The position numbers and the translations under genes were made by a program. From a virus: 29,345 nucleotides of DNA. Below are positions 3,666-29,345 of this stretch, piece after piece. Position 1 is the stretch's first letter. Each line of letters starts with the position of its first letter. The notes beneath the pieces are model-generated. The model was not told the DNA's origin. It worked only from the letters and a program-made list of their open reading frames with translations, and made no database searches. The stretch lies in the IMG/VR virus record IMGVR_UViG_3300008114_003575, positions 1-29,345 of that record. The stretch is one strand, 5' to 3'.

Positions 3666-4322
3666 ATGAGAGCTATTAAGACATTTGAGAATTTTTCTCC
3701 TGATAATTATTTATGGAACGATGCTTCTTTTTGGATAGAGGAACTATATCCAGAGGAGATATGCTTCCTTTCGATCTATTCAAAATATATAGATGATTTA
3801 AAAACAAAAAAAAATAACGAGTCACCTTTATTTAAGGTAAAACTTGAATCTCCTGATGAGGTAGATTTAGAAGAGGATGGAGACGAAGCTTCAACTGGTT
3901 TTGAAATGTTTTATAGTATTCCTGCTAAAAAAGGCGAGGCCACTCTATCCTTTGAAGTGACAGCTTCTGGTTATTTTACTCCGGTAAGAAGTTATGGATA
4001 TTATGAACCAGAGGAGGGTGGAGACCCTATATTAGATGATATAAATATAGAATCCGTATATTATCTAGATTCGGAAGAAAATTTAGAGATTGATTTTTAT
4101 TCTACCTCTTATAACTTTAGCTCAGAATTTATAACAGAAAAGATGCTAACGGATATCATGGTTTTTGTTGCAGAAGATCGAATGGTATACGATGAATCAA
4201 GGGTACAAGCTGATCTCCCTTCAATTCCACAAGGTCTTTTAGATAAATGTGAAAAAATTAGGAAAAAAAATCCTTCTATATCAAAGGGATATGATATAAT
4301 TAATAGATTTAATCTTAAATAG
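3666..4322 (+). CDS. Tag-family acidic protein of unknown function
   Basis: A 218-residue protein. I chose the ATG at 3666 rather than the in-frame TTG at 3624 because it gives the tag-like N-terminus MRAIKTFENFSPDN, with Arg-2, Ile-4, Phe-7 and Phe-10 in the same places as other tagged proteins. It lacks the V/I-x-E at 13-15 and instead has S-P-D-N, like the V-P-N-D of the 550-residue protein. The rest is acidic, with a run of E/D near 58-70 and beta-rich segments (~75-160). It ends in YDIINRFNLK, similar to the end of the 4761-5159 product (TEILNRFKF). ATATATAA lies five bases before the start. Function unknown. Confidence 0.75.
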   Translation: MRAIKTFENFSPDNYLWNDASFWIEELYPEEICFLSIYSKYIDDLKTKKNNESPLFKVKLESPDEVDLEEDGDEASTGFEMFYSIPAKKGEATLSFEVTASGYFTPVRSYGYYEPEEGGDPILDDINIESVYYLDSEENLEIDFYSTSYNFSSEFITEKMLTDIMVFVAEDRMVYDESRVQADLPSIPQGLLDKCEKIRKKNPSISKGYDIINRFNLK

Positions 4323-4367
4323 ATAAGGAACAAAATATATTTTTTAATCTATAAAAGTTAAAAAAAT

Positions 4368-4613
4368 ATGAGAATTTTATTTGCTTTTTTTCTATCTTTT
4401 CAAATTAGTATAGGATATTCACAGATGGAAAAAGTTTCGGTAGTATCAACAAATAGAGATACTTTATGGTTAAGAAATAATGATATAGGACTATTAATAG
4501 CTAGATCTTGGGAGATGGGAAATTTACCACCGGAGGAAAAAGTACCAGTAATATTAATAGTAGATGCACTTCCGGATAATACTAGAAATGGAAAAAGAAA
4601 ATCTAGAGAATAA
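4368..4613 (+). CDS. Small secreted protein
   Basis: An 81-residue protein starting with a typical signal peptide: Arg-2, a hydrophobic core LFAFFLSFQISI and a probable cleavage site near GYSQ (~18-20). The mature part is about 60 residues, with no cysteines and a basic end (NGKRKSRE). It would be exported to the host periplasm if translated. No family recognised. The following gene starts inside its last codons. Confidence 0.6.
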   Translation: MRILFAFFLSFQISIGYSQMEKVSVVSTNRDTLWLRNNDIGLLIARSWEMGNLPPEEKVPVILIVDALPDNTRNGKRKSRE

Positions 4614-4755: not shown

Positions 4756-4760
4756 TAATG

Positions 4761-5159
4761 ATGAGATACATAAAACTTTTTGAATCGTTTAATCAAGTAA
4801 ATGAAGCCGAAGGAATTTCGGAAGATTTAATATTCGATTGGCTACCTTTTGATGATCAGATAAATAATCCAGTAAATTCTAGAGTACCTATTGAAGTTAA
4901 ATATTCTGAACTTGCTCAAGTTTGTAATGAGATGGGAAAAGACTTTAATGGTGTTGGTCTTTATATAGCTCACCAGAAACTAAGTGATGGCGGATTTGTT
5001 AGATTCGTAGTAGGAAACCCTTCACCAGTACTTTTTGACGTAGCAGTATTTGACAGAGAATTTAAGAAGTCTTCAGAACAAAAAGGTATATCAGCTGATA
5101 AATTTAATTTCAAATCATATTTAAGAGGAACAGAAATTCTTAATAGATTCAAATTTTAA
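4761..5159 (+). CDS. Tag-family protein of unknown function
   Basis: A 132-residue protein. Two ATGs stand in tandem (4758 and 4761); the second gives MRYIKLFESFNQVNEAE, which aligns residue for residue with the tag consensus: Arg-2, Tyr-3, Ile-4, Phe-7, Phe-10 and V-N-E at 13-15. This is also the member closest to the T4 capsid-targeting peptide (aromatic, acidic, then E-A). A second possible processing site, ISE, lies near 19-21. The remaining ~110 residues form an alpha/beta-looking globular domain with no recognised family, ending in TEILNRFKF. A strong terminator (5176-5210) follows. Confidence 0.75.
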   Translation: MRYIKLFESFNQVNEAEGISEDLIFDWLPFDDQINNPVNSRVPIEVKYSELAQVCNEMGKDFNGVGLYIAHQKLSDGGFVRFVVGNPSPVLFDVAVFDREFKKSSEQKGISADKFNFKSYLRGTEILNRFKF

Positions 5160-7291: not shown

Positions 7292-8554
7292 CTATTTCTT
7301 TTTAAAAAAATCCTTCCAATCAACTTCCACTGGAGAATATCCAGAAGCTACTAATTTTCTAACTTCCTGTAGAGCTTTATCTGTAGAGCTTCCTTTTTTG
7401 TAAAGTCTATCCCAAGATCCGTCTTTTTTCCTACTCTGATTGTTCATTAGATCTATAGCAGTTACAGCTCCCTGTGCATTTGGATTTTTACCAACTAATT
7501 TTTTAATAGATTCCTTTTGCTTCCATAATGTTTCCTGAATAATAACCGTCCACTTATTAGCAACAATATTTTCTGCATTTTTTATAACATATTTAGGATC
7601 TTTATATTCTTCAGGTACTGCTATATCAAGTCTGTCGCCTATGTTCATTATTTTTACCCCAGTTTTTCTTTCTTCGTATCTTCCTGAATAATATGACTTT
7701 ATTTTTTTAAATCCTAATGTTGGTAATACTCCAGTAATAGCACGCATATCGAAAAGGGTAGATCTAACTGTATGTTGTGTACAGTTAGAAAAAAGAAGAT
7801 TGTAACTTTTATTACTAGCTCCTATTACTGCAGTTGGTACATCCTTAACCTTTTTTTTCGCCCAATCACCAACTATTTTTTTAAAGTTGTCGTATTCTTT
7901 TTTGTTCATTTTTATTACGACTGATTGTTTTTTGAGATGATTTAATTCGGAGCATACTTGATTATACATTGTTTGAGAATACTCTGGGTATATCTTTTCC
8001 CCTGTTTTAGTATCACCAACACCACCTAAAAGAACTTTATCTATATCAGCTTTCTCAGGCATTGCATTTATTTGATATTTAGGCTCTTTTAAAGACCAAG
8101 CTTGTAGGTGACCGAATCCTCCTCCTGCATCTTTTTGACCCATCTCGAAGTAATCAACTACTACCGGATACTGGAACTCTTTTTTAGCATACGCCTTAAT
8201 TTCTTGTTCCATTGGCATATCAGTTTCTGTGTTGTACCAATTACCTCCCCAAACAAAATAATTGCATCCTTGTTTTTTAGCTGCTAAGAAAGCTTCCTTT
8301 CTAGTTTTTTTGGATGACATATTACAAGATTTCCCTTGCTTTATTGAATTGTAATAGAAATCTTTTAATATTCCTTTTCCCCAATTAAAAGAATCGTCGC
8401 CTTTCTTTTTTAAGTTGGATACAGTTTTTTTCCCCGTATCCAAAAGCTTATTTGCAAAATCTTTATAATCATCAAAATTCCAATATTCATTTATATCGTC
8501 ACTAGATGATTCACTGATATTATTCCAATCTTTAAATGATTTAAGATGCTTCAT
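7292..8554 (-). CDS. Tagged protein with permuted papain/NlpC-like cysteine hydrolase signature
   Basis: A 420-residue protein. The N-terminus MKHLKSFKDWNNISE fits the tag consensus exactly (Lys-2, His-3, Leu-4, Phe-7, Trp-10, I-S-E at 13-15), with a Ser/Asp-rich linker straight after the proposed cleavage site. Further on, GGGFGHLQAW (His, ~155) precedes YNLLFSNCTQHT (Cys, ~260). A histidine before an N-C-T motif is the order found in circularly permuted NlpC/P60-like hydrolases (LRAT/YiiX type), so a peptidase or amidase role is plausible. The C-terminal third (~310-420) is basic, helical and of unknown function. It heads away from two smaller minus-strand genes that are transcribed before it. 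Fold assignment is tentative; the tag is clear. Confidence 0.8.
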   Translation of the reverse strand: MKHLKSFKDWNNISESSSDDINEYWNFDDYKDFANKLLDTGKKTVSNLKKKGDDSFNWGKGILKDFYYNSIKQGKSCNMSSKKTRKEAFLAAKKQGCNYFVWGGNWYNTETDMPMEQEIKAYAKKEFQYPVVVDYFEMGQKDAGGGFGHLQAWSLKEPKYQINAMPEKADIDKVLLGGVGDTKTGEKIYPEYSQTMYNQVCSELNHLKKQSVVIKMNKKEYDNFKKIVGDWAKKKVKDVPTAVIGASNKSYNLLFSNCTQHTVRSTLFDMRAITGVLPTLGFKKIKSYYSGRYEERKTGVKIMNIGDRLDIAVPEEYKDPKYVIKNAENIVANKWTVIIQETLWKQKESIKKLVGKNPNAQGAVTAIDLMNNQSRKKDGSWDRLYKKGSSTDKALQEVRKLVASGYSPVEVDWKDFFKKK

Positions 8555-9170: not shown

Positions 9171-10151
9171 ATGGTAAAGAAAAAAGGACCCATATGTATG
9201 TTTATAGAGAGAAACTATAAACATTTTAATGCAGCTGCCTTAAAAGATGCAGCTATAGGATACGAAAAACATATAGATAGCGGAGGGAAGATGCTCGTGT
9301 CGCTGGCAGGTGCAATGAGTACAGCAGAGCTTGGTATTTCACTTGCTGAGATGATAAGAGAAGGAAAAATTGATATAATATCTTGTACAGGAGCAAACTT
9401 AGAGGAGGATTTAATGAACCTAGTAGCTCACTCTCACTACAAGAGAATACCTAACTACCGCGATTTAACTCCTCAGCAAGAAAGGGATCTTTTAGATAAG
9501 GGACTGAATAGAGTTACAGATACATGTATACCCGAGGAAGAAGCTTTTAGAAGACTACAGACCCACATATATGATATTTGGAAAGAAGCTGAAGATAAAG
9601 GAGAAAGATATTTTCCGCATGAATACATGTACAAATTAATCAATAGTGGAATACTAGCTCAATATTATGAGATAGATCCAAAAGATTCTTGGATGATTGA
9701 AGCAGCTAAAAGAAATCTACCGATGGTTGTTCCTGGATGGGAGGATTCAACAATGGGAAATATATTTGCTTCTTATGTTATTAAAGGTGAACTAAAAGCT
9801 GAAACAGTTAAAAGTGGTATAGAGTATATGGTAGATCTTAGCCATTGGTACAGAAATAATTGTTCACCGATGGGTGTCGGTTTCTTTCAAATAGGTGGAG
9901 GAATTGCGGGAGATTTTCCAATATGTGTTGTTCCTATGATGTATCAAGATCTTGAATGGGAGGATGTACCATTTTGGAGTTATTTCTGCCAAATCTCAGA
10001 TTCTACCACATCTTATGGATCATATTCAGGAGCAGTTCCAAATGAAAAGATTACTTGGGGTAAATTGGATGCGGATACACCTAAATTTGTAATAGAGTCG
10101 GATGCAACTATAGTTGCTCCTCTAATGTTCTCTTGGATATTAAATAAGTGA
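9171..10151 (+). CDS. Deoxyhypusine synthase family enzyme (bacterial homospermidine-synthase-like)
   Basis: A 326-residue full-length member of the deoxyhypusine synthase family, NAD-dependent enzymes that move an aminobutyl group from spermidine to an amine. Visible blocks are LAGAMSTAELG, SCTGANLEEDLMNLVAHSHY, VPGWEDSTMGNI, FQIGGGIAGDFPIC, DSTTSYGSYSGAVPNEKI and TWGKLD. Lys-298 in WGK corresponds to the lysine that forms the enzyme-substrate imine in the human enzyme. The K-H-H segment of eukaryotic enzymes is absent, as in bacterial homologues. Bacteria lack eIF5A, so the product is more likely homospermidine or another polyamine than deoxyhypusine. The sequence is very close to what I recall of Bacteroidota host enzymes, suggesting recent acquisition. 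It pairs functionally with the SpeD homologue at 5899. Confidence 0.92.
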   Translation: MVKKKGPICMFIERNYKHFNAAALKDAAIGYEKHIDSGGKMLVSLAGAMSTAELGISLAEMIREGKIDIISCTGANLEEDLMNLVAHSHYKRIPNYRDLTPQQERDLLDKGLNRVTDTCIPEEEAFRRLQTHIYDIWKEAEDKGERYFPHEYMYKLINSGILAQYYEIDPKDSWMIEAAKRNLPMVVPGWEDSTMGNIFASYVIKGELKAETVKSGIEYMVDLSHWYRNNCSPMGVGFFQIGGGIAGDFPICVVPMMYQDLEWEDVPFWSYFCQISDSTTSYGSYSGAVPNEKITWGKLDADTPKFVIESDATIVAPLMFSWILNK

Positions 10152-10155
10152 TTTC

Positions 10156-10165
10156 GGATATATAA
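10156..10165 (+). promoter_or_regulatory. Candidate phage promoter element GGATATATAA upstream of tagged hydrolases
   Basis: The exact decamer occurs 5 bases after the stop of the DHS-like gene and 82 bases before the ATG at 10247. It would drive the two tagged hydrolase genes 10247-11767 as one unit. Confidence 0.5.
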
Positions 10166-10246
10166 ATAGTGAAATGTATCTTAGTATTATGTGTTGTAAC
10201 CATATTGACAATACCTATGGGATACATACATTTAAATAAACAAAAA

Positions 10247-10981
10247 ATGAGGCATCTAAAAAGTATAGAGGAATTTAAAAAAGTAAATGAGCAGTTATTT
10301 AAAAGCGAAGGGTCTTTTTTTAATAAGATGTTAAATCTAGGAGACACAAAGAATGATGCTACAGCATCCGCGGGTGGTGCAGATTCTTCAGGTTCTTCTT
10401 CAGGTTCTTCTGGAACTATAGACAATAAAGTCGATATATCAGATTATGGAAAATTCAGTGAGGCTAAGGACAAAAAAGCTCCTTTAGTAGTTGTATATGG
10501 CGGAATAGATGTTGCTGGTAAGAAAAGTGGCGTATATATGTATGACTATTTAAATACTCTAGGAAATTCAGTAAATTTGTTTGTAGCTAAAGATGCTAGT
10601 ATTAACGGAAAATCTGCATATACATCTTTAAAAAATAAATTATCAGATCTATCAATAACACCATCTAAAAAGATATTATATCTTTTCTCCGGAGGATGGA
10701 GTCCAGGTAAAGATCTATTGAGCTCTGTTTCTGCATCTGAATTTGATACAATATACCTAGTAGATATATGGATGGGTAAAGATGCTTCTTCTAGTTTTTA
10801 TAAAAAATTAGCAGCAGACAACAGAAGCAAAGTTAAGTATTTCTACACTAGCTTTGGTGCTAATGATAAATCTGCTAGCGATGCAATTATTAAGGCAGTA
10901 AACACTTCTAAATTAAATGGAAATAACGATCATATGTCTACTAACACAGATGCAGTTTCAGATTTAAAAGGAATTATATAA
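10247..10981 (+). CDS. Tagged protein with GxSxG motif, possible alpha/beta hydrolase
   Basis: A 244-residue protein. ATG 10247 is preferred over the upstream GTG (10169) because it gives the tag MRHLKSIEEFKKVNEQLF with V-N-E at 13-15. It shares about 30 N-terminal residues of pattern with the next gene (…EF..V.EQLF……FNK), followed by a Gly/Ser linker (GGADSSGSSSGSSG, ~45-60). The domain after it has LVVVYGG, LYLFSGGWSPG and IYLVDIW. G-W-S-P-G matches the nucleophile elbow of alpha/beta hydrolases; an Asp in VDIW and a His near the end (NNDHMSTN) could complete a triad. A lipase, esterase or peptidase role is inferred, not shown. The linker suggests tag and enzyme are independent modules. Confidence 0.75.
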   Translation: MRHLKSIEEFKKVNEQLFKSEGSFFNKMLNLGDTKNDATASAGGADSSGSSSGSSGTIDNKVDISDYGKFSEAKDKKAPLVVVYGGIDVAGKKSGVYMYDYLNTLGNSVNLFVAKDASINGKSAYTSLKNKLSDLSITPSKKILYLFSGGWSPGKDLLSSVSASEFDTIYLVDIWMGKDASSSFYKKLAADNRSKVKYFYTSFGANDKSASDAIIKAVNTSKLNGNNDHMSTNTDAVSDLKGII

Positions 10982-10990
10982 TATAAAAAA

Positions 10991-11767
10991 ATGAAGCATT
11001 TAAAAAATATAAAGGAGTTCGGATTGGTTTATGAGCAGCTATTTAGTCAAGAGCTTGCAGCATTCAATAAACTTATGGGTATATCTGTTGAAGAAACAGG
11101 AATGGCTGAGCCAAATATGATTTCCGCTGAGAACCCTTCTGGATTAGGAACTGCTCCAGTATCTGTTGTTAAACTGAACACTAATCAATTAGATAATTAC
11201 GGATCTACTGTTGGAATAACAGAGAAGGGAGACTCTTCCAGCTTAAACCAACCATCAAGAGGACCTTTAGGAAATATAGTAAACTCAGCTTATGCAAATT
11301 TAAATGTTTCAACAAGAAGAATCCCTGGAACAATGGGTGGAAATCTTGGATGTGCAGCTGCTGTTTCTATTATATTTTACAGAGCTACTGGATATGCAAT
11401 AGCAGGATCAGGAGCTATAACGTTGGGAACTTCAAGTATGTGGAGCCACATGGATGCAGAAAGCAAAAAATCCAATGGAGTTTGGCAAAAAATAACTAGT
11501 TGGAAAACAGATTCTCAGCCTGGTGATATAATATTAACATCTAGAGCAACTAAAGCAGGACACGTGGGAGTTGTAGTAGAGGGAGGAAATATTATATCTA
11601 ATTCTTCTGGTGGATTTCAAGGAGATAGAAAAGGTCAAATAGAATTAAATTATAATCTAAATACTTGGCAAAGCGTAGCAAACAGAAATCCTACTCAAAC
11701 AGCATCTTTTAGATATAGAGGTCCTTACAAATCAACATGGGGTAAAGAACAAGCTCCGATAGCATAA
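10991..11767 (+). CDS. Tagged NlpC/P60-like cysteine peptidase
   Basis: A 258-residue protein. Tag MKHLKNIKEFGLVYEQLF with V-Y-E at 13-15, then a low-complexity Pro/Ser/Asn linker to ~105. The catalytic domain shows GGNLGCAAAVSIIF (Cys-121 at a helix start), DIILTSRATKAGHVGVVV (His-191) and IISNSSGG. This order and spacing fit NlpC/P60 or CHAP-type cell-wall peptidases, which cut peptide bonds in peptidoglycan. It follows the GxSxG-hydrolase gene by 9 bases and shares its tag, so both are probably co-expressed and co-packaged. A virion-borne wall peptidase would help DNA entry. The enzyme call is fairly sure; packaging is inferred from the tag. Confidence 0.8.
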   Translation: MKHLKNIKEFGLVYEQLFSQELAAFNKLMGISVEETGMAEPNMISAENPSGLGTAPVSVVKLNTNQLDNYGSTVGITEKGDSSSLNQPSRGPLGNIVNSAYANLNVSTRRIPGTMGGNLGCAAAVSIIFYRATGYAIAGSGAITLGTSSMWSHMDAESKKSNGVWQKITSWKTDSQPGDIILTSRATKAGHVGVVVEGGNIISNSSGGFQGDRKGQIELNYNLNTWQSVANRNPTQTASFRYRGPYKSTWGKEQAPIA

Positions 11768-14713: not shown

Positions 14714-15040
14714 ATGGAAAGTAATGAATATTTTAATATTGACTTTTTAGTTGATAGATTTTTAGAGGTGAAAGGACAGGATTTAGTTACAAATAAAAAA
14801 TTCAAAGAAAAAGCAGCAGAGAAAAAGAAAGAAGCGGCAGCAGCTGAAGCAGGAGCAACAGGAGCAACAGGAGCTGAAGGAGCAACAGGAGGTGAAGCTG
14901 GATCTGAAGGAGGAGAAATTATCATTAAGGAAATTGTAAATCTTATAAAGGATTATCCTAATGATTACGAGCTAGGTAAAAAAGTTAGAGAAATATTTAG
15001 AGACAAAGTAAAGGAGGAGAAAGATGGTAATAGGGATTGA
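14714..15040 (+). CDS. Small protein with Ala/Lys coil and Gly-Ala-Thr collagen-like repeat
   Basis: A 108-residue protein in three parts: an ordinary N-terminus (~1-35), a Lys/Glu/Ala-rich helix (~33-50), a low-complexity Gly-x-y stretch (GATGATGAEGATGGEAG, ~52-68), and a charged C-terminal helix (~72-108). The repeat is encoded by near-repeated DNA units around ggagcaaca (14848-14892), so its length may vary by slippage. Short collagen-like stretches are common in phage structural proteins, but this one is small and highly charged. The HAD-like gene begins inside its 3' end. Function unknown. Confidence 0.65.
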   Translation: MESNEYFNIDFLVDRFLEVKGQDLVTNKKFKEKAAEKKKEAAAAEAGATGATGAEGATGGEAGSEGGEIIIKEIVNLIKDYPNDYELGKKVREIFRDKVKEEKDGNRD

Positions 15041-19964: not shown

Positions 19965-22100
19965 GTGAAAAAATTTAGGTTATCATTTTCTGTAGCATCA
20001 GCTATTCTAATTATGCTGTTTTTCTTTATAGCAAAAACATCTGTTACATTTGGTATAGTTAAGGATTCAAATTTTTATAATTTAATTGAGTACGCATGTT
20101 TTATTTCATTTTGCTTACCTGCATACTTTATAGCAAAAACTTTTTTAAAGAAAAGAAAAGAGGAGAAGAAGAAATTAGATTATAATAAAAAATTATCAGA
20201 CTCTCTGATTAACCAATCTCATAATGAGGTATTTTTTTCAGGTAATGTAGAAGCTGGATCTGCTATTCTTTCTAAGGAGGTTTCGGATACAATAGAATCT
20301 GATAGATGTTCTTTCTGGCTTTATAATAACGATCGTACATCTATTATTTGTCAGAATCTTTATGTGAGATCTGAAAATAATTTCTACAATAATATAGAGT
20401 TATTTGAGAAAGACTTTTTACCGTATTTTGAAGCAATTAAAGAGAATCCAATAATTGTTGCAAATAATGCAGAAACACATCCAGCAACTTCTTGTTTTTT
20501 AGAAACATATCTTAAACCATTAGGTGTAAAATCTATGCTTGATGTTCCTATTTGGTATAAAGGAAAAGTAATAGGTGTTATATGTATTGAAAGTCTTTCA
20601 CCAAGAATATGGAACAAGGAGGAGGTAGATTTCGCACAGATGCTTTCTTCTTTATATTCTTTCGGGTATTCTGTTAAGGAGTCTAATAAATTATCTGATG
20701 AAATAATAGAAAATGAAAAATTTCTTGATGCAGCATCTATTATATCAGTTGCTGACGAAAAAGGAAAAATAACTTACGTAAATCAAAGATTCACTGATGT
20801 TTCTGGATATTCATTAGAAGAAGTTATAGGAAAAGATCATAATATAGTAAACTCTGGTACGCATCCTAAGGAGTTTTGGACAGATATGTACAAGACAGTT
20901 GTAGCTGATAAAAAAATATGGAATGCGGTTTGTACAAATAGAGCTAAAGACGGAAGCCTATATTACGTAGATACTTTTATCAAAGCTAGATTCGACGAGA
21001 ATAATAAACTTTCCGGATTCTCCTCTATACGTCAGGATGTAACAGATTTAAAAAGAAAAGAGGTTGAGATATCCAATAGAATGAATGCTATTAATAGATC
21101 AAATGCTGTTATTGAATTTGATCCGTATGGTAATATAAAATTTGCAAATGATTCATTTTTGGAAATTTTAGGGTATTCGCATGATGAAATAGAAGGAAAA
21201 CATCACAGTATATTTATAGAGGATTCAGAAAAAAATAGTAAAGCCTATTTAGATTTTTGGGAATCTTTAAGAGATGGAAAATTCTTTAGAGGAGAGATTA
21301 CTAGAAAGAAAAAAAGCGGAAAGCTAATTTATCTACAAGCAACTTATAATCCTATCATAGGAAATGACGGAAAAACATATAGAGTAATGAAAATCGCTAC
21401 TGATATTACTGAAAGTTTTAACCAGCAGAAAGAGTTAGAAAAGAAAAATACATATCTTGAGCATGCTGCTAAAATACTTAGACATGACATGCACAGTGGT
21501 ATTAACACATATATGCCTAGAGGATTAAGCTCTTTGGATAGAAGATTATCAGAGGATCAAATAAAAGAACTTAAAGTTGAAGCTCCTATTAAAATGATTA
21601 AAGAGGGTCTTAGACATACGCAAAAAGTTTATAAAGGTGTATACGAATTTACAAATCTTGTAAAAAAAGACGTGGTCCTTAATAGAACTGAATGTGACTT
21701 AAAATATATTTTAGATGATTACCTATCAGCAACTGCATATAGACCTCAGGTAGATCTATCAGATATTGGTACTTTAAGTGTAAACGAAGCTCTATTTTGT
21801 ACAGCATTAGATAATCTAATTAGAAATGGGCTAAAATATAATGATAGTGATAATAAAATAGTAAAGATCTATAGAATAGATGATACATTATATGTTGAAG
21901 ATAACGGAAGAGGATTAAGCTCTGAAGAGTTTAAGTTACTTTCTCAGCCATATACCCGTAAGGAAGGTCAGAAAGAGGCAGGAACGGGATTAGGATTAAA
22001 TATATGTATAGCAATATTAGAAGAACATGGGTTCAGTGTTTCTTGTGATAAACTTCCTCATGTGGGAAGTCAAATAAAAATAAATTTAAAAAATGATTGA
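19965..22100 (+). CDS. Membrane histidine kinase with GAF and two PAS domains
   Basis: A 711-residue sensor kinase starting at GTG 19965. Two transmembrane helices (~10-30, ~40-60) have almost no external loop, so sensing is probably internal. A GAF domain follows (~75-235, LDVPIWYKGKVIGVICIES), then PAS1 (~250-365, ending SSIRQDVTDLKRKE) and PAS2 (~370-485, ending KIATDITESFNQQ). The phospho-acceptor helix contains His-507 in ILRHDMHSGIN. The ATP-binding domain has N-box DNLIRNGLKYN, G1 VEDNGRGL and G2 GTGLGLNIC, so kinase activity should be intact. It overlaps the receiver gene by 8 bases. Phage-encoded full-length histidine kinases are rare; it may take over or feed into host phosphorelays, with PAS/GAF ligands unknown. 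Confidence 0.93.
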   Translation: MKKFRLSFSVASAILIMLFFFIAKTSVTFGIVKDSNFYNLIEYACFISFCLPAYFIAKTFLKKRKEEKKKLDYNKKLSDSLINQSHNEVFFSGNVEAGSAILSKEVSDTIESDRCSFWLYNNDRTSIICQNLYVRSENNFYNNIELFEKDFLPYFEAIKENPIIVANNAETHPATSCFLETYLKPLGVKSMLDVPIWYKGKVIGVICIESLSPRIWNKEEVDFAQMLSSLYSFGYSVKESNKLSDEIIENEKFLDAASIISVADEKGKITYVNQRFTDVSGYSLEEVIGKDHNIVNSGTHPKEFWTDMYKTVVADKKIWNAVCTNRAKDGSLYYVDTFIKARFDENNKLSGFSSIRQDVTDLKRKEVEISNRMNAINRSNAVIEFDPYGNIKFANDSFLEILGYSHDEIEGKHHSIFIEDSEKNSKAYLDFWESLRDGKFFRGEITRKKKSGKLIYLQATYNPIIGNDGKTYRVMKIATDITESFNQQKELEKKNTYLEHAAKILRHDMHSGINTYMPRGLSSLDRRLSEDQIKELKVEAPIKMIKEGLRHTQKVYKGVYEFTNLVKKDVVLNRTECDLKYILDDYLSATAYRPQVDLSDIGTLSVNEALFCTALDNLIRNGLKYNDSDNKIVKIYRIDDTLYVEDNGRGLSSEEFKLLSQPYTRKEGQKEAGTGLGLNICIAILEEHGFSVSCDKLPHVGSQIKINLKND

Positions 22101-22524
22101 TTCAATTTTATTGGTAGATGACGAAAGTTTATTTCATCTTGTATTTGAGGATGCTTGTAGCCTTCTTGACATTTCTCTTTCTTTAGAAAGCCTTGATAGC
22201 TCAGATGAAGCTGCTAAACTTTTTTCTGGGTGGCAAAAAGATCCTGAGGGAAAACCTGAATGTGTATTCGTAGACTTGAACATAATTGGATCTTCTTATG
22301 ATGGTATTGAATTAATTCGTAAGATCAATTTTGAGTATGGTAATAATGTTGTTATTGGGATAATATCTTCATCTAATGAACCAGAGGAACAAGCTAAAGC
22401 AGTTAAAGCTGGGGCTCAATTTTGGATTATAAAATCTGATGATATTGAACCGAGATTAGAGGATTTCAAAAATGATTTTCCTGGATATAAGAACAGAACC
22501 AATCCATTTAAGATTTATAAGTAA
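22093..22524 (+). CDS. Single-domain response regulator (receiver)
   Basis: A 143-residue receiver domain with no output domain. Acid pocket Asp-9/Asp-10 in LLVDDE, phospho-acceptor Asp-61 in VFVDLN, the Ser switch in GIISSS, and the conserved Lys in FWIIKSDD are all present. Lone receivers act through protein binding, as CheY and Spo0F do. It lies between the kinase and a coiled-coil membrane protein with overlaps on both sides (8 bases and 1 base), so the three should be made in fixed proportion. The likely partners are that membrane protein or a host phosphotransfer protein. Confidence 0.92.
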   Translation: MIDSILLVDDESLFHLVFEDACSLLDISLSLESLDSSDEAAKLFSGWQKDPEGKPECVFVDLNIIGSSYDGIELIRKINFEYGNNVVIGIISSSNEPEEQAKAVKAGAQFWIIKSDDIEPRLEDFKNDFPGYKNRTNPFKIYK

Positions 22525-23096
22525 TGAAAGTAAGTAAAGAAGTCAGAGATTGCTTACTTGAAATACACAAAACAAAAAGAGTAAGCTTAGAAGGTAATAT
22601 ACTGAAGCTTATTGAACCAGAGGAAGGAGATAATGAATTTAAAAATTATCTAACTGGATCAATAGAAAAGGATAAGGAGGGAAGAAAGAAAAGACTTGAA
22701 ATAACTAAACAGGTACAGGAAAGAAATCGTGAGCTTCAAGCTTCCGAAGAAGAGAATATAAGAATAAACGAAGAGCTTAAAATCGCATTAGAGGAAGCTG
22801 AAATAGCAAAAAACGAAGCTTTAGAAGCAAAAGACATTGCACTAAACGATTTGGATATTATACAAAAAAGATCACAAACCGAACTTATAGGCACTATAGT
22901 TAAAGTTGCTTTGCTTGTTATTATAAGTGTTGGAGTTATTACTACAATTATGTATGCAATAGCTATGATGACAGGAAAAGACACACAAATAATAGGGTCC
23001 ACCTGGAGTAATATGTTCGGAATACTCCTAACCAACGCATTCTCTATAGTTGGTACTATCATGGGGGTTAAATACGCTAGCGAAAAAAAGGAATGA
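22524..23096 (+). CDS. Coiled-coil protein with two C-terminal TM helices, third gene of the signalling operon
   Basis: A 190-residue protein: a charged N-terminal segment (~1-55), a long coiled coil (~55-118, rich in E/A/K with heptad spacing), then two transmembrane helices (~122-146 and ~160-183) and a short basic/acidic tail. The coil resembles signalling linkers in sensor proteins. Its gene overlaps the receiver stop by one base. It may be a membrane-bound target of the receiver, for example a channel- or holin-like effector gated by the cytoplasmic coil; this is speculation from topology and gene order. No named family recognised. Confidence 0.8.
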   Translation: MKVSKEVRDCLLEIHKTKRVSLEGNILKLIEPEEGDNEFKNYLTGSIEKDKEGRKKRLEITKQVQERNRELQASEEENIRINEELKIALEEAEIAKNEALEAKDIALNDLDIIQKRSQTELIGTIVKVALLVIISVGVITTIMYAIAMMTGKDTQIIGSTWSNMFGILLTNAFSIVGTIMGVKYASEKKE

Positions 23097-23097
23097 C

Positions 23098-23138
23098 AAA
23101 AAAAGAGAGCCAGGATGGTTGCGATTCTCCTGACTCTC
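23098..23138 (-). terminator. Rho-independent terminator, minus strand
   Basis: On the minus strand GAGAGTCAGGA pairs with TCCTGGCTCTC (11 bp with one G-U wobble, 12-base loop), followed by seven T (A at 23098-23104). On the plus strand the same position is a C-A mismatch and no T-run follows, so the element is oriented for the minus-strand gene 23165-23650. It lies right after the stop of the plus-strand signalling operon. Confidence 0.8.
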
Positions 23139-23174
23139 GATGATACTTGCGTAACATCACGGTCCTAAGCCGTG
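23139..23174 (-). ncRNA. Tandem hairpins abutting the minus-strand terminator
   Basis: Read on the minus strand, CACGG/CCGTG closes a 7-base loop (23158-23174), and next to it GATGTTAC/GTATCATC (one U-U mismatch) closes a GCAA GNRA tetraloop (23139-23158). With the terminator stem (23105-23138) this makes three hairpins end to end with almost no unpaired bases. The first overlaps the stop codon of the minus-strand gene. It could be a structured 3' end, a small stable RNA or a stabiliser. It does not fold as a tRNA. Confidence 0.4.
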
Positions 23175-23650
23175 TAAGATCTTAATTTTCTTTGTTTCTG
23201 TATTCTATTATATCTTAATAATTCATGTAAATGAAACAAACAAAGAATAGTTATTGCAAATATTTCAGCATATAATATGCTATGGAATAAAAATAATATA
23301 GAAGCAGAATAGGGTACTATCGCCCAGTTTATTTTTTTGTTTAACAAAAGTGGATAAAAATTAAACAAAAAGAAGGATATAGCAAATATATTATGAAGAC
23401 TTTCATTAGTATTAAAAGAGAATGCAGTCAAAAGCAATAGCATTACTGCAGGAATTCTCCATCTATTTAGAGAGAATAGAAAATATGATGTTGAAGCATT
23501 TACTATTATAAACATTGGTTGCATAGGTGTAATCCAATAAGAAGATATAGATGGAAGTTCTCCTATTGATCCTATGTATATAAAAGGAGCTATAGCTGCC
23601 ATTAAAATTACAAGAAACCTTAGAATGAAATCTTTCTGATTATTGAACAT
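23165..23650 (-). CDS. Polytopic membrane protein
   Basis: A 161-residue hydrophobic protein with about five or six transmembrane helices and a basic C-terminus (LRYNRIQKQRKLRSYTA). I chose the ATG at 23650, since a longer frame to 23773 would run into the opposite-strand gene at 23667 and adds an unlikely N-terminus. It is the only minus-strand gene between 9115 and 26771, has its own terminator, and is larger than most phage membrane proteins; this looks like a separately acquired cassette. No family recognised. Confidence 0.65.
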   Translation of the reverse strand: MFNNQKDFILRFLVILMAAIAPFIYIGSIGELPSISSYWITPMQPMFIIVNASTSYFLFSLNRWRIPAVMLLLLTAFSFNTNESLHNIFAISFFLFNFYPLLLNKKINWAIVPYSASILFLFHSILYAEIFAITILCLFHLHELLRYNRIQKQRKLRSYTA

Positions 23651-23666
23651 ATAATATGTATTCGAT

Positions 23667-23873
23667 ATGGCTAGAAAAAAAATAGAAATCGTCGGGGAAT
23701 ATGAGGAAGATATTTCTACTTTAACGGGTAAAAGAAAAATCCTATTTAATAATATGAGAAAACTACACCCCAAAGGAAATAAAAAAGCACAAATGGGTTT
23801 ATGTTTAGATCTAGATGATAGTAGGGTTGATCATTATATAAATTGCATATTTAATGTAAACGAAAAGAGATGA
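23667..23873 (+). CDS. Small basic hypothetical protein
   Basis: A 68-residue, basic, soluble protein (MARKKIEIVGEYEEDISTL...) with a helical DNA-binding-like look (KRKILFNNMRKLHPKGNKKAQMGLCLDLDD broken across ~22-50), but no definite helix-turn-helix. Divergent from the membrane protein gene with only 16 bases between the two start codons, so their promoters must lie inside each other's coding regions or be absent. ATGA overlap with the next gene. Confidence 0.55.
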   Translation: MARKKIEIVGEYEEDISTLTGKRKILFNNMRKLHPKGNKKAQMGLCLDLDDSRVDHYINCIFNVNEKR

Positions 23874-24121
23874 AAAAAATATTCTATTTATCATTTGGTA
23901 TTTCAATCCTATTTTCTTGTAATACTAAAACAAAAAAAATACACCACTCGTGTACAGTAACTTCTTTTGAAGAACAAAAAAAATATTCAATCCATGATGA
24001 AATGAGTCGAACAAAGTATACCGTTGGTACATCATGTGGTGACAGAAAATTTATTGTCTATAGAAAGTATAATATAGGGGACACAATAACATTAACTGAG
24101 GTTATTGTAGAGAAAGATTAA
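23870..24121 (+). CDS. Small lipoprotein
   Basis: An 83-residue protein with a lipoprotein signal: MKKIFYLSFGISILFSC, where Cys-17 follows L-F-S. The mature part (about 66 residues) has two more cysteines that could form a disulfide (HHSCTVTS and GTSCGD) and looks beta-rich. It lies directly before the endolysin gene, where an outer-membrane spanin would be expected, but its sequence is not Pro-rich or coil-forming as o-spanins often are. A lysis or superinfection-related envelope role is inferred from position only. Confidence 0.7.
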   Translation: MKKIFYLSFGISILFSCNTKTKKIHHSCTVTSFEEQKKYSIHDEMSRTKYTVGTSCGDRKFIVYRKYNIGDTITLTEVIVEKD

Positions 24122-24133
24122 AATACTAATTTG

Positions 24134-24143
24134 GGATATATAA
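24134..24143 (+). promoter_or_regulatory. Candidate phage promoter element GGATATATAA upstream of the endolysin
   Basis: The decamer ends 17 bases before the endolysin ATG (24161). It is also the left arm of an inverted repeat: GGGATATA (24133-24140) and TATATCCC (24153-24160), with the right arm touching the start codon. The repeat could be an operator for a dimeric repressor or could occur by chance in this A/T-rich sequence. Confidence 0.5.
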
Positions 24144-24160
24144 AATAAAAATTATATCCC

Positions 24161-24973
24161 ATGATACTTAAATTAGGCTCTAAGGGTACCGAAGTAGAAA
24201 AACTACAAAACTTTCTAGGTCTCCCAATAAACGGAAATTTTGATGAATCTGTAGACAAGGCTTTAAAGGCTTGGCAAAAATCTAACGGATTAAAAGATGA
24301 CGGTATAGCAGGTCCAGTAACCCTCAAAAAAATGGGTATACTATTAGAATCTGATATGCCTGTAACAAACTCAGCATTTAAATTAGAAAAATTAAAAGGA
24401 CATATTCCTGATTCTGTTATAGCACAGATACCAGACACTGCTGCTAAATTTGGAATAACCAATACACTTAGATTAGCTCACTTCCTTTCACAATGCGGAC
24501 ATGAGTCGGGGGGATTTAAAGCAGTTTCAGAAAATCTTAATTATTCAGCAGATGGACTTAAAAAAGTATTTGGTAAGTATTTCCCTGGAAATCTTAATGA
24601 ATCATATGCTAAGCAACCGGAAAAAATAGCTTCTAGAGTTTATGGAAGTAGAATGGGTAATGGCGACGAAGCTTCTAAAGAAGGATGGAAATTTAGAGGA
24701 AGAGGTTATATCCAATTAACTGGTAAATCTAATTATCAATCATTTGATGCTATCGTTGAAGATGATATTATAAATAATCCGGATCTAGTAGCAACTAAAT
24801 ATCCGTTAATGTCAGCTGCGTTCTTTTTTAATAAAAATGGTCTTTGGACTATATGCGATAAAGGAGCTGATGATGCAACAGTTACAGCAGTAACAAAAAG
24901 AGTTAACGGTGGAACATTAGGACTTGCTGATAGAATTAAACACTTTAAAGAGTATTACAATCTACTTAAATAA
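24161..24973 (+). CDS. Endolysin: peptidoglycan-binding domain plus GH19 chitinase/lysozyme-like domain
   Basis: A 270-residue lysin. Residues ~1-65 form a PG_binding_1 domain (LKLGSKGTEVEKLQNFLGL, then GIAGPVTLKKMG). Residues ~80-270 form a GH19-type glycoside hydrolase: LAHFLSQCGHESGGF with the catalytic Glu, then WKFRGRGYIQLTGKSNY and a C-terminal VTKRVNGGTLGLADR. It would cut the glycan backbone of the host wall at lysis. There is no signal peptide, so a holin or similar must release it. The next gene starts 7 bases downstream. Confidence 0.92.
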   Translation: MILKLGSKGTEVEKLQNFLGLPINGNFDESVDKALKAWQKSNGLKDDGIAGPVTLKKMGILLESDMPVTNSAFKLEKLKGHIPDSVIAQIPDTAAKFGITNTLRLAHFLSQCGHESGGFKAVSENLNYSADGLKKVFGKYFPGNLNESYAKQPEKIASRVYGSRMGNGDEASKEGWKFRGRGYIQLTGKSNYQSFDAIVEDDIINNPDLVATKYPLMSAAFFFNKNGLWTICDKGADDATVTAVTKRVNGGTLGLADRIKHFKEYYNLLK

Positions 24974-25602: not shown

Positions 25603-26769
25603 ATGAAACATTTACATCTTTTTGAATCGTACGTCGATAAAATATATGAAGTAAGAATGGATCCACACTGGATCGAAAGAACTAGTTTAAAGGATGTAAT
25701 GTCCAGAGCTTTGCCATATAATAGTAACTTTGCTTATGGTTTTAGAGTCAGTAAATTTTTGGATGATAAAAATAATGATGTGTCCAAGGCTCAAGCTATT
25801 TCAAATCTTAATATTGATGAAAATAAATTGAATACATACATAAGTAAAGCTATTCATTATATTACTAATAGTAAAAAATTAAAAGATTGGTTACCTGATA
25901 ATAATAATCCTATACAAATGTTAGACCTGGGAAGAATATGTTTTAATAACGGAACTTATAAATACTATCCAGTTATAAAATCAGGAAAGGGTCCAGGACA
26001 AATAGAGCAATTTTATACTGAGGGAGATAATATATGGGGAGCAGTTAAAGACAATGACTTAGGTATTACGGTAAAATATTATCCTTCTGACGGAAGCGGG
26101 ATTGAAAGAATGTATGCAGATTTTCAAAGAGATACAGGATTCTCTTCTAGTGTTTTCTATAAAAACTCTTCATGGGGTTATCCTTACGGTGAAGATTTCG
26201 AAATAGTGGTCGATCTTACTGATGATAATCAAGTATCTATTGAGAGTAAGTTAAAAGAGCAGTCAGAGGGAAGAGAATGGAAAATGGGGCCTGAGGAAAG
26301 GGAAGAACATGTTCTTGCTGAACCGAATTATTTTGCTCTTGAATTAAAAAGGATACAATTATCTCCAGGATTAGTAATTGCTATAGAGAATCAAGAAACA
26401 GGGAAGAAAAATTTATGGCAAGTTTCTTATATATCTAATGCTGATGAGCTCTATCAAATATATTTAGAAGACAAAAAAAATAAAACGGAACTTTTAAAAT
26501 CACAGCCTTTAATTTTTTATGGTGTAGCTGTTGAAGAAACTACGAGATATATAGGTAATAAACCAATTAATAAAATATCGGTAATTGGATCGAGCATTGG
26601 AAGAAAAGTAACTCTAAATCCTGGTGATTTCGTATACATAAGAAAACAAATAAGATCTAGTTATGGCGGTGTAGATGATCCTAATGTTAGATATAAATTC
26701 AAATTTGTTACATCGGAGCCTAGTATATTAAAAAGAGGGTCAGCTCAGATAGCTTTAGAATACGTATAA
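25603..26769 (+). CDS. Tag-family protein of unknown function
   Basis: A 388-residue protein. The ATG at 25603 rather than 25591 gives the tag MKHLHLFESYVDKIYE, with Lys-2, His-3, Leu-4, Phe-7, Tyr-10 and I-Y-E at 14-16 (one residue later than in the others). The rest is soluble alpha/beta, with no transmembrane segment and no catalytic motif I recognise. Segments include HWIERTSLKDVMSRALPY (~23-40), reminiscent of a toxin/BrnT-like 'H..(E/D)R' motif but not diagnostic, and a beta-rich C-terminal third (~250-388). It ends tail to tail with the minus-strand genes, one base apart. A terminator at 26816 serves it. Confidence 0.75.
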   Translation: MKHLHLFESYVDKIYEVRMDPHWIERTSLKDVMSRALPYNSNFAYGFRVSKFLDDKNNDVSKAQAISNLNIDENKLNTYISKAIHYITNSKKLKDWLPDNNNPIQMLDLGRICFNNGTYKYYPVIKSGKGPGQIEQFYTEGDNIWGAVKDNDLGITVKYYPSDGSGIERMYADFQRDTGFSSSVFYKNSSWGYPYGEDFEIVVDLTDDNQVSIESKLKEQSEGREWKMGPEEREEHVLAEPNYFALELKRIQLSPGLVIAIENQETGKKNLWQVSYISNADELYQIYLEDKKNKTELLKSQPLIFYGVAVEETTRYIGNKPINKISVIGSSIGRKVTLNPGDFVYIRKQIRSSYGGVDDPNVRYKFKFVTSEPSILKRGSAQIALEYV

Positions 26770-28412: not shown

Positions 28413-29345
28413 TTATATAGAAAGGATTTTCCTCCAAAGAGGTTTTTTGGTGAACAGTACTTCAAATTTTAAGAAATTTCTATTTGCATTTCCAACTTCT
28501 ACAAAAGCTAATTTTTCCATAAAAGCAATCGTCTTATTAAAAGAAACTGGATCTATTATTTCTTGTGTCTCTTTAGCATCTTTATTTTCTACTATATAAA
28601 CTCCAGGTTCATTTTCTTTTGTCCTTCTACCTACAATAATAGTATTGTCTTCGAAACGCTTGTTAGGATCAATAAATACCCCTATTCTTCCTGCTATAGT
28701 TCCAATGAATCTAATTTGACCAGATAAACTAGTAATACGTAAATCCCCCTCATTATAAACAAATGAGGGATGGTCTTGAATTAAAGCCCCCGTAAATCCA
28801 CTACAGATAACAAAATCTCCAGGTCCTCTTCTCGATCTAGTTACTATCAGATTAGATCTAATTATAATAGAGTTTATTAGAATCTTAGATCCCTCTATTG
28901 AATCATTATTAGTGTATAATGGAAATTTAAGATTAGGAAATAATTTTACTAAAAATCTTTTCCATTTAGATTCTTTTAAAATTTCTTCTTGAGATTCTTC
29001 GGCTAGTTTATTATAAACATCAGACAATCTTTTATATCTTTGAATTGCTGCTTCATTCTCTAAAACAGGCATCATCATAGAAGAAGCATCAACACCATGA
29101 AAATAAGATAAATCTTTCTCTAATTCTTGATTCATTTTTGATGTCACCCTAAATGTTTGTAATTCAATAAATTTTGAAAATGTACTCAATGATAAGACTC
29201 CATATTCTTCACCTTGTGATCTCGATCCCCAATCATCATATGGTTTTTCATTATCTGGATAAGAAGTGAAGTCTAAATAGGTAATGATACCTGTTGATGT
29301 TTTAGTGTCTAAATTGCACGCTGTTTCTAAGAAATTCATATTCAT
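28413..29345 (-). CDS. T4 gp23/gp24-like major capsid or vertex protein, 5' partial
   Basis: 310 codons reach the window edge, and an ATG stands exactly at the edge. T4 gp23 is about 520 residues, so the true start is probably beyond. Conserved blocks in gp23 order: a TFRVTSKMNQELEKDLSYFHGVDA segment (matching the Y-T-x-E-L-x-Q-D-L…H-G-x-D-A of gp23), SNLIVTRSRRGPGDFVICS (gp23: T-x-R-G-x-G-N-F-I-V), then IAGRIGVFIDPNKR and NTIIVGRRTKEN…GVYIVEN (gp23: Y-R-V-Y-I-D…F-T-V-G-Y-K-G…G-I-Y-Y-A-P-Y). It would form the HK97-fold head shell. Whether it is the main or a vertex paralogue cannot be told here. Confidence 0.8.
   Translation of the reverse strand: MNMNFLETACNLDTKTSTGIITYLDFTSYPDNEKPYDDWGSRSQGEEYGVLSLSTFSKFIELQTFRVTSKMNQELEKDLSYFHGVDASSMMMPVLENEAAIQRYKRLSDVYNKLAEESQEEILKESKWKRFLVKLFPNLKFPLYTNNDSIEGSKILINSIIIRSNLIVTRSRRGPGDFVICSGFTGALIQDHPSFVYNEGDLRITSLSGQIRFIGTIAGRIGVFIDPNKRFEDNTIIVGRRTKENEPGVYIVENKDAKETQEIIDPVSFNKTIAFMEKLAFVEVGNANRNFLKFEVLFTKKPLWRKILSI

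Follow-up and report, generated by a model that had tools for sequence, protein, structure and literature searches.

A short N-terminal tag on unrelated phage enzymes, recurrent in related phages and similar to the N-termini of T4 internal proteins

In bacteriophage T4, the otherwise unrelated proteins IPI, IPII, IPIII and Alt have a short N-terminal peptide in common; the stretch of about 10 residues shared by IPII and IPIII carries foreign proteins into the core of the prohead, as set out in PMC9958956, and the IP and Alt propeptides are removed by gp21 according to PMC7411985. The present work concerns a similar arrangement in the 29,345-nt virus record IMGVR_UViG_3300008114_003575 (the whole stretch of DNA analysed, a 29-kb sequence called the window below), where two neighbouring open reading frames (ORFs) on the plus strand, gene A (10247-10981, 244 amino acids (aa) counted from the methionine of the shared start) and gene B (10991-11767, 258 aa), begin with a common sequence of the pattern M[KR]HLK-x-I-x-EF-x-x-V-x-EQLF. 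This sequence, referred to as the tag, has the same build as the T4 IPs: a basic start, spaced aromatic residues and an [ILV]-x-E motif.

Two further systems invite comparison. In phage P1, the N-terminal 30 residues of DarB suffice to bring a reporter into the capsid, and the same paper (PMC9024508) reports no N-terminal consensus for the Dar proteins of P1, whereas the tag described here is shared and recognisable. In the giant phages SPN3US and phiKZ, a prohead protease related to that of T4 cleaves the propeptides of ejection proteins after a glutamate, and two SPN3US paralogs are identical over their first 15 residues; however, several of these propeptides exceed 100 residues and do not represent one short tag on many enzymes, and their motif is A-X-E or S/A/G-X-E rather than [ILV]-x-E (PMC5694885). 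Unlike in T4, the cargo in the phages considered here includes wall hydrolases, and the sub-type ending in EQLF has a fixed Q-L-F behind the putative cleavage site. Given the T4 and P1 precedents (PMC9024508), such tags are not a new kind; what is new, as far as our searches reach, is their scale, their lineage-specific spelling and a sub-tagged set of enzymes sharing domains with endolysins. In the open-licence literature, to the extent that its text was accessible, we found no description of a lineage-wide tag in such phages, and the term 'capsid targeting' does not appear in the accessible text of an overview of 224 jumbo phages (PMC7824862) or of a paper on huge gut phages (PMC12363816).

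Two adjacent genes with a common start

The products of genes A and B are strongly alike over residues 1-18, weakly over residues 19-31 and not at all thereafter. Their first 50 residues give a local BLOSUM62 score of 82, which none of 20,000 shuffles equalled (maximum 53), while the remainders score 33 against a shuffle mean of 33.6, a value equalled by 259 of 500 shuffles. Searching the window with gene A as query returned a single non-self match, at 10991-11095 (E-value 2.7e-5), and comparison of the first 50 residues with the rest at the protein level confines the similarity to the N-terminus. A first-pass annotation of the window had described a match EF..V.EQLF extending past a 15-residue tag, and this is what we find, the residues E9-F10-x-x-V13-x-E15-Q16-L17-F18 being identical in both products. 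The FNK[ML] motif reported in the same place is also present, but at residues 25-28 instead of 26-29, and it is partly accidental to this pair, as two orthologs of gene A read LSKG and LTKG where genes A and B have FNKM and FNKL. It is hardly credible that the two proteins are diverged full-length paralogs, as the adjacency of their genes might suggest, or that two helices resemble each other by chance: no similarity is left behind the tag and the domains belong to different families, and the score of the tag was reached by none of the shuffles.

As had been proposed, gene A encodes an alpha/beta hydrolase. An AlphaFold2 model computed with three A orthologs predicts, with low confidence, a helix at residues 7-29 (ten-residue means of the predicted local distance difference test, pLDDT, of 43-49), then disorder up to residue 59 (means 28-41), whereas residues 61-244 form a confidently predicted domain. 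Its fold is that of an alpha/beta hydrolase (Foldseek E-value 3.8e-5; VIA-align Z 13.4, root-mean-square deviation 3.0 over 166 residues, with matches covering residues 55-244). Residues Ser, Asp and His are conserved in the order of a triad, S148 and D173 in 17/17 sequences each and H229 in 16/16 that reach this position (the 17 include three near-copies of other sequences), and by their position we assign them as the putative catalytic triad. In the predicted structure, the N-terminal segment is a separate module and not an integral part of the fold; the Ser/Gly linker, which had been taken as a sign of independent modules, is a predicted disordered stretch between the helix and the confident domain.

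For gene B, the original NlpC/P60-like call held in part. A CHAP/NlpC-type match and the conserved residues C121 and H191 (invariant in 3/3 sequences and in 5/5 domain sequences) speak for it, but both scores lie below the curated cut-offs (CHAP 24.3 bits against 26, NlpC 18.6 against 23), as does the CHAP match of an ortholog (E-value 2.7e-5), and we therefore term gene B CHAP-like only. A profile search of the PDB returned one chain, an endolysin, at an E-value of 0.1. The structure prediction had a mean pLDDT of 32, so that no fold search was made with this model, and no domain besides the CHAP-like region was recognised in the protein. With similarity behind the tag at shuffle level, and with an alpha/beta hydrolase next to a CHAP-like protein, the enzyme domains are unrelated, as the first-pass annotation had it. 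Neither protein had a relative at an E-value of 0.1 in the phage collection.

Recurrence of the tag in related contigs and other phages

Protein and DNA-pattern searches of IMG/VR returned six related contigs: G001 (206.6 kb), G002 (86.0 kb, yielding the same match set as G001), G003 (115.8 kb), G004 (55.0 kb), G005 (154.4 kb) and G006 (190.7 kb). The A-B pair is adjacent in G001, G003, G004, G005 and G006, and contig 3300008267_000005, the seventh, likewise has the two side by side. With a profile of the module, strong copies number four in each of G001 and G005 and three in each of G003, G004 and G006, and the tagged copies form four unrelated families: A (gene A), B (gene B), C (GH19 endolysin-like) and D (an unassigned protein of G001 and G005). 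Together with the window these families have 6, 6, 5 and 2 members, 19 proteins from 6 phages, and E-Q-L-F is invariant in 19/19 when they are aligned. Mean pairwise identity within families is 0.64-0.83 over residues 1-18; over residues 19-31 it is 0.35 in both A and C, 0.54 in D and 0.67 in B. Because the latter stretch is poorly kept, the true common unit comprises about 18 residues, and of the pre-domain of about 30 residues originally suggested only the tag is well conserved, the remainder being loose and unconserved in families A and C. Between-family BLAST alignments within one genome begin at residue 1 and end at residues 18-62. A profile made only from families C and D of other phages, the window excluded, has 10247 and 10991 as its top six-frame matches in the window (E-values 2.3e-13 and 3.7e-7), followed by a tagged gene at 4758 (0.0027).

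By itself, family C matches nothing in Pfam. Its profile matches PDB 4ok7, a GH19-type endolysin (E-value 2.1e-11), and hhalign aligns it with the untagged endolysin of the window over residues 60-190 (98%, E-value 3e-13). BLAST likewise matches family C proteins to the untagged endolysin of their own genome (E-values 2e-5 in G001, 3e-6 in G003, 3e-7 in G004 and 1e-9 in G005), the matches beginning at C residues 60, 59, 69 and 26, respectively. GH19 endolysins such as 4ok7 and, weakly, CHAP endolysins are the known enzymes closest to C and B, respectively, but unlike these, B and C carry the tag, and the peptidoglycan (PG)-binding domain of the untagged endolysin is not seen in C by Pfam. For the D protein of G001 there is no match in Pfam or NCBIfam; a further tagged protein of G001 matches CHAP weakly, at the cut-off. 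Cargo families with the EQLF sub-type number at least four (alpha/beta hydrolase, CHAP-like, GH19 endolysin-like and one unassigned), and we infer that together they attack the cell wall or envelope when the phage enters.

The first-pass annotation had suggested module duplication and domain swapping and had proposed looking for the same tag on other enzymes in related phages, where families C and D are now found. One tag on four unrelated families agrees with this suggestion, with the qualification that this is an old duplication: at shared residues, third positions show no excess of matches (0.58 for paralogs of one genome, 0.55 for orthologs, 0.54 for paralogs of different genomes), and a recent duplication or gene conversion of the tag was rejected on these grounds. 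The same figures bear on the idea that the shared start is a nucleic-acid signal, translational or regulatory, and not a peptide. Its location at the 5' end of the reading frame would suit such a signal, but paralogs of one genome hardly surpass orthologs at third positions, and in the first 93 nt of genes A and B (60% DNA identity; codon positions 1/2/3 at 55/71/55%) it is the second codon position that is best kept, so that we consider this explanation very improbable.

Searches with the cargo domains lead to further tagged proteins. The window hydrolase as a lone query of IMG/VR returned no relative, while alignment queries succeeded, and the hydrolase domain alone yielded 16 loci (L215, L225 and L228 being copies or near-copies of L214, L223 and L220). 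Judged by eye, 14 of the 16 N-termini are tagged in the general style, that of L222 is doubtful and that of L229 (contig G007), a reading frame of 1,260 codons whose first methionines are without a tag, is untagged. The tags on these loci vary by lineage (MKHLKSIDEFKKVNEQLF, MRTFYEYLNES, MKHLLEYKIFES, MKIKRFNDFMSES, MIKKFKEFANES). In L220 and L228, tag and hydrolase are separated by a PG_binding_1 domain (E-value 1.8e-8 in L220, the one scanned), and L222 has CHAP (1.3e-9), PG_binding_1 (1.5e-5) and hydrolase domains in a single protein, which links the hydrolase to the cell wall. The CHAP-like domain of gene B as query gave 11 loci, 10 of them tagged, three of these with another spelling; in L239 (contig G008) the domain is part of an untagged 920-aa protein. 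Two contigs, 3300008448_000032 (L226, L237) and 3300008262_000231 (L227, L240), have both A and B, with tags of each contig's own type. Domains move behind tags, and this swapping is seen directly.

Recurrent N-termini are found across entire genomes by clustering that uses no motif and counts ORFs whose N-terminus resembles those of two or more others with dissimilar downstream sequence, internal methionines serving as control. It gave 42/305 ORFs in G001 (control 0), 40/625 in the 462-kb phage LR756500 (control 1) and 29/569 in Lak-A1 (control 3), where the count may in part represent a family of neighbouring paralogs. The counts were 13/202 in G005, 8/153 in G003, 7/286 in G006, 3/83 in G004, 3/245 in T4, 2/271 in pT24, 0/253 in MA9V-1 and 0/48 in the window, all with controls of 0. 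A strict pattern finds tags on 6/48 ORFs in the window (internal decoys 1/104), 36/306 in G001 (9/660), 16/153 in G003 (6/430), 7/83 in G004 (1/152), 24/202 in G005 (8/514) and 14/286 in G006 (3/667). With patterns specific to each genome, tagged ORFs against internal decoys were 19/289 vs 0/953 in PAU, 29/667 vs 0/1306 in LR756500, 10/597 vs 1/2155 in Lak-A1, 5/283 vs 0/1053 in pT24, 5/262 vs 0/1061 in MA9V-1 and 3/255 vs 0/660 in T4. Tagged proteins are thus few in T4, whereas in the contigs of the lineage they make up 5-13% of the ORFs by the strict pattern, and 2-14% by clustering (G001 and G003-G006). The spelling differs between genomes: MKHIKLFENFDPINES in G001, MKYIKEYEEFILEA in LR756500, MKTISKLYEAKLNEA in PAU, MNKNIKKLLESLFDD in Lak-A1, MKNFFSFINEA in MA9V-1 and MKTYQEFIAEA in T4. 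Lak-A1 also has a second recurrent N-terminus, MK[IV][QS][IV]Rx[GS]VFETNSSS[TV]H, on five neighbouring ORFs at 311040-313500 (minus strand).

Likeness to T4 and the weighing of explanations

A tag profile made from 26 N-termini of LR756500, with no T4 input, ranks IPIII first (11.3 bits) and IPII second (11.1 bits) among 1,151 start-like segments of T4, the next segment being an internal decoy at 9.8 bits. In G001, 28 genes reach at least 5 bits at the start codon against 0/673 internal segments; the family D protein of this contig has 8.2 bits, and some B and C orthologs also reach at least 3 bits. The motif [ILVA]xE starts at most 6 residues behind the tag aromatic in 81/202 lineage tags and 13/82 decoys (shuffle mean 25.9), in a set that includes some signal peptides and counts the orthologs of six contigs apart; for LR756500 the figures are 29/76 tags and 2/44 decoys (shuffle mean 11.2). 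The putative protease motifs of the two window proteins are V-N-E and V-Y-E, with V at the first position, where the T4 prohead-protease consensus [L/I]-x-E has L or I.

In phage PAU, the context of the tag points to the head. Its tagged ORFs number 14/56 within 15 kb of head genes against 5/233 elsewhere (p 1.3e-7), and the deposited record names three tagged products 'internal capsid protein' (gp142, gp154) or 'scaffolding' (gp152), the basis being unstated there. A tag-like motif is present in the capsid propeptide of two relatives: within the first 150 residues of the major-capsid frame, the best hexamer is AKLNES in PAU (0.024% of genome hexamers score at least as high) and EFINEA in MA9V-1 (0.0088%). 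The PAU capsid protein has 585 residues, 520 of them in the virion by N-terminal sequencing, as given in Table 1 of PMC5646251; were it cut behind L62-M63-E64, 521 residues would remain, one more than reported. Head genes of the T4 type are also present. Matches to gp21 (S77 protease) and gp23 occur in 7/7 of the other records, T4 included (S77 over the cut-off in 6/7), and gp20-like portals in two of the five lineage contigs, G003 and G005, each with two in tandem, but not in G001, G004 or G006. These tandem pairs lie at 102300-105600 in G003 and 136085-139400 in G005, each portal matching PF07230 at about 1e-60.

Among the possible explanations we favour, as the probable one, that the shared N-terminus is a capsid-targeting (head-packaging) propeptide of the T4 type, which loads wall-active enzymes for ejection. 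Packaging, cleavage and ejection of the tagged enzymes are extrapolated from T4, and their substrate is presumed. The tag would dock unrelated cargo to the core of the growing prohead, a gp21-like protease of the phage would cut behind its [L/I/V]-x-E, and the freed enzymes would stay in the head with the DNA, to be ejected together with it into the host on infection, where they may help to open or pass the envelope.

Several observations weigh against this explanation. The clustering does not discriminate in PAU (19/284 vs control 20/284), and the per-genome patterns were written after the clusters had been seen. Both window proteins remain below 3 bits with the LR756500 profile, which at 5 bits separates starts poorly from decoys in T4 (4/260 vs 4/670), PAU (6/291 vs 5/963) and MA9V-1 (2/264 vs 6/1069). 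Outside PAU, tagged genes show no significant clustering near head genes; those near head genes and elsewhere number 0/30 and 29/637 in LR756500, 0/17 and 5/266 in pT24, 0/37 and 3/218 in T4, and 2/43 and 3/219 in MA9V-1 (p 0.19). The motif in the capsid propeptide is weak in LR756500 (KLINEA, 0.15%, unremarkable over 150 positions), and pT24 has none. If the propeptide is cleaved at the putative site, there is no reason for Q-L-F to be conserved behind it, unless these residues make a second docking contact or the cut does not happen at this place. The lineage contigs, which are possibly fragments, yielded neither a gp21 protease nor a gp23 capsid gene of full length; in G001, neither Pfam nor locally built profiles detected a major capsid or protease gene, and the S77-like protein in one of the five contigs, G006, has 147 aa. 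Large proteins without a tag can end in a CHAP or a hydrolase domain (in G008 and G007, respectively). Finally, gene A may begin upstream of the tag, with a hydrophobic segment, in 4/7 EQLF orthologs, in which case the protein would not start with the tag itself.

The untagged domains in large proteins would suit a virion address of another kind, in which the tag docks wall-degrading enzymes to the tail or baseplate for penetration. Tagged cargo does include wall-lytic and PG-binding domains, and the large untagged proteins with a CHAP-like domain (L239, 920 aa) or the hydrolase (L229, 1,260 codons) could be tail components, a guess from their size and sequence. We nevertheless regard a tail address as unlikely: the tag resembles T4 IPII and IPIII, tagged genes of PAU lie among head genes with three deposited as internal capsid or scaffolding proteins, and scans of 833 and 860 residues of the two large proteins gave no PHROGs match and, in Pfam, weak CHAP and Big_15 matches only. 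The upstream segment of gene A leads to a different idea, that the tag is a membrane-associating helix for the inner membrane of the infected cell, preceded in gene A by an optional anchor and without a role in the virion. The listed ORF of gene A in fact begins at a GTG at 10169, and the hydrophobic extension 5' of the tag is found in the window, G001, G003 and G005, with differences between G001 and G003 distributed 6/1/11 over codon positions 1/2/3, as in coding sequence; the tags are also mildly amphipathic, with a mean helical moment of 0.34 for 96 tagged N-termini and 0.28 for 975 untagged ones. On the other side, the extension is absent from G004, L218 and G006, the mean hydrophobicity of the tags is low (-0.09), and their own shuffles often reach the moment (median rank 0.245), so that a membrane helix appears improbable. 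Given the small difference in moment, amphipathicity was also rejected as a mark of tags. The extension itself (10169-10246) may provide a second start and thereby a membrane-anchored form of gene A.

Other features of the window and implications

The features of the window are collected in Table 1. One of the additional tagged genes, 7292-8554, has the best N-terminus of the window by the huge-phage tag profile, with one internal decoy of the window scoring higher (6.5 bits); its product has no Pfam or PHROG match and one insignificant NCBIfam match.

Table 1. Positions of genes A and B, their parts and other features discussed in the text (window numbering; residues of gene A counted from the tag methionine)
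Feature	Position	Strand	Basis
Gene A, tagged alpha/beta-hydrolase, 244 aa	10247..10981	+	ORF, fold search, conserved triad
Tag of gene A, residues 1-18 (MRHLKSIEEFKKVNEQLF)	10247..10300	+	alignments; V-N-E is the putative prohead-protease site
Gene A residues 19-31, second half of predicted helix	10301..10339	+	mean pairwise identity 0.35, 6 orthologs
Ser/Gly-rich linker of gene A, predicted disordered	10340..10426	+	ten-residue pLDDT means 28-41
Alpha/beta-hydrolase domain, residues 61-244	10427..10978	+	ten-residue pLDDT means 78-96; fold matches
In-frame hydrophobic extension 5' of tag Met (GTG start), possible longer gene A	10169..10246	+	similar in G001, G003, G005
Gene B, tagged CHAP/NlpC-like cysteine hydrolase, 258 aa	10991..11767	+	PF05257 E-value 4.4e-5 at residues 120-198, just below cut-off
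Tag of gene B, residues 1-18 (MKHLKNIKEFGLVYEQLF)	10991..11044	+	alignments
CHAP-like region of gene B, residues 120-198	11348..11584	+	PF05257 match
Another tagged gene (MRYIKLFESFNQVNEAE...)	4758..5159	+	profile of families C and D only, E-value 0.0027
Another tagged gene (MKHLKSFKDWNNISES...), 420 aa	7292..8554	-	huge-phage tag profile, 5.7 bits
Another tagged gene (MKHLHLFESYVDKIYEVR...)	25603..26769	+	strict tag pattern
Untagged endolysin (PG_binding_1 + GH19), counterpart of family C	24161..24973	+	Pfam E-values 5.9e-11 and 7.2e-9; hhalign to C

A gene of the deoxyhypusine synthase family (9171-10151; PF01916, E-value 1.9e-41) lies directly 5' of gene A, as it does in G001, G003 and G005; phage polyamine enzymes are the topic of PMC9992855. 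Also 5' of gene A, at 10161, there is a T4-like TATAAATA. This sequence is the T4 late-promoter box; it was rejected as a feature of tagged genes, since it is not enriched upstream of them (1/36 tagged and 8/270 untagged genes in G001; 1/6 and 1/42 in the window). Counts of TATAAATA in ten genomes or contigs are below expectation in nine, and LR756500, with 341 against 321 expected, has no clear excess. Tagged MoxR-type AAA ATPase genes occur twice each in G001 (20383-24889 and 47757-50308), where they adjoin DUF2201 metallopeptidase or VWA-like genes, and in G006 (161555 and 188158); these ATPases are possible head cargo.

Short relatives of head genes are a recurrent feature as well. What resembles the T4 major capsid protein Gp23 in the window, G004, G005 and G006 proved to be short paralogs of about 250-315 aa: 28413-29345 (minus strand) in the window, matching PF07068 at profile positions 139-349 (E-value 1.8e-14), 28945-29823 (plus) in G004, 63529-64431 (minus) in G005 and 34532-35473 (plus) in G006. 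Such a paralog accompanies the full-length gene in LR756500 (247595-248539, minus) and MA9V-1 (135770-136525, plus). Short S77 relatives of 135-147 aa, perhaps inactive regulators or remnants, are found in G006 (4029-4469, minus) and in LR756500 (154843-155247, minus), which has a full S77 protease besides. A 108-aa ORF of the window (14714-15040) is similar to the C-terminal end of gp20-like portals (residues 473-529 of one G005 portal, 55% over 65 aa, E-value 8e-13) and appears as a free-standing portal tail.

To our knowledge, little has been established on which proteins giant phages inject. Should the tag be an address for head packaging, the proteins borne in the head or injected would be readable from the genome, and the candidate cargo would comprise 36/306 ORFs in G001 (by the strict pattern, some of them false), 29/667 in LR756500, 19/289 in PAU and 10/597 in Lak-A1. 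A wider proposal, to which we give somewhat less than even credence, is that each lineage of T4-related jumbo or huge phages has a capsid address in its own spelling, which co-evolves with the prohead protease and loads from several to a few dozen proteins, with the EQLF sub-type marking the enzymes that breach the envelope. Were this so, the injected cargo of such phages could be listed from sequence alone. The tags would also represent short, natural and modular signals for loading phage heads, a use to which the T4 and P1 signals have already been put (see PMC9024508).

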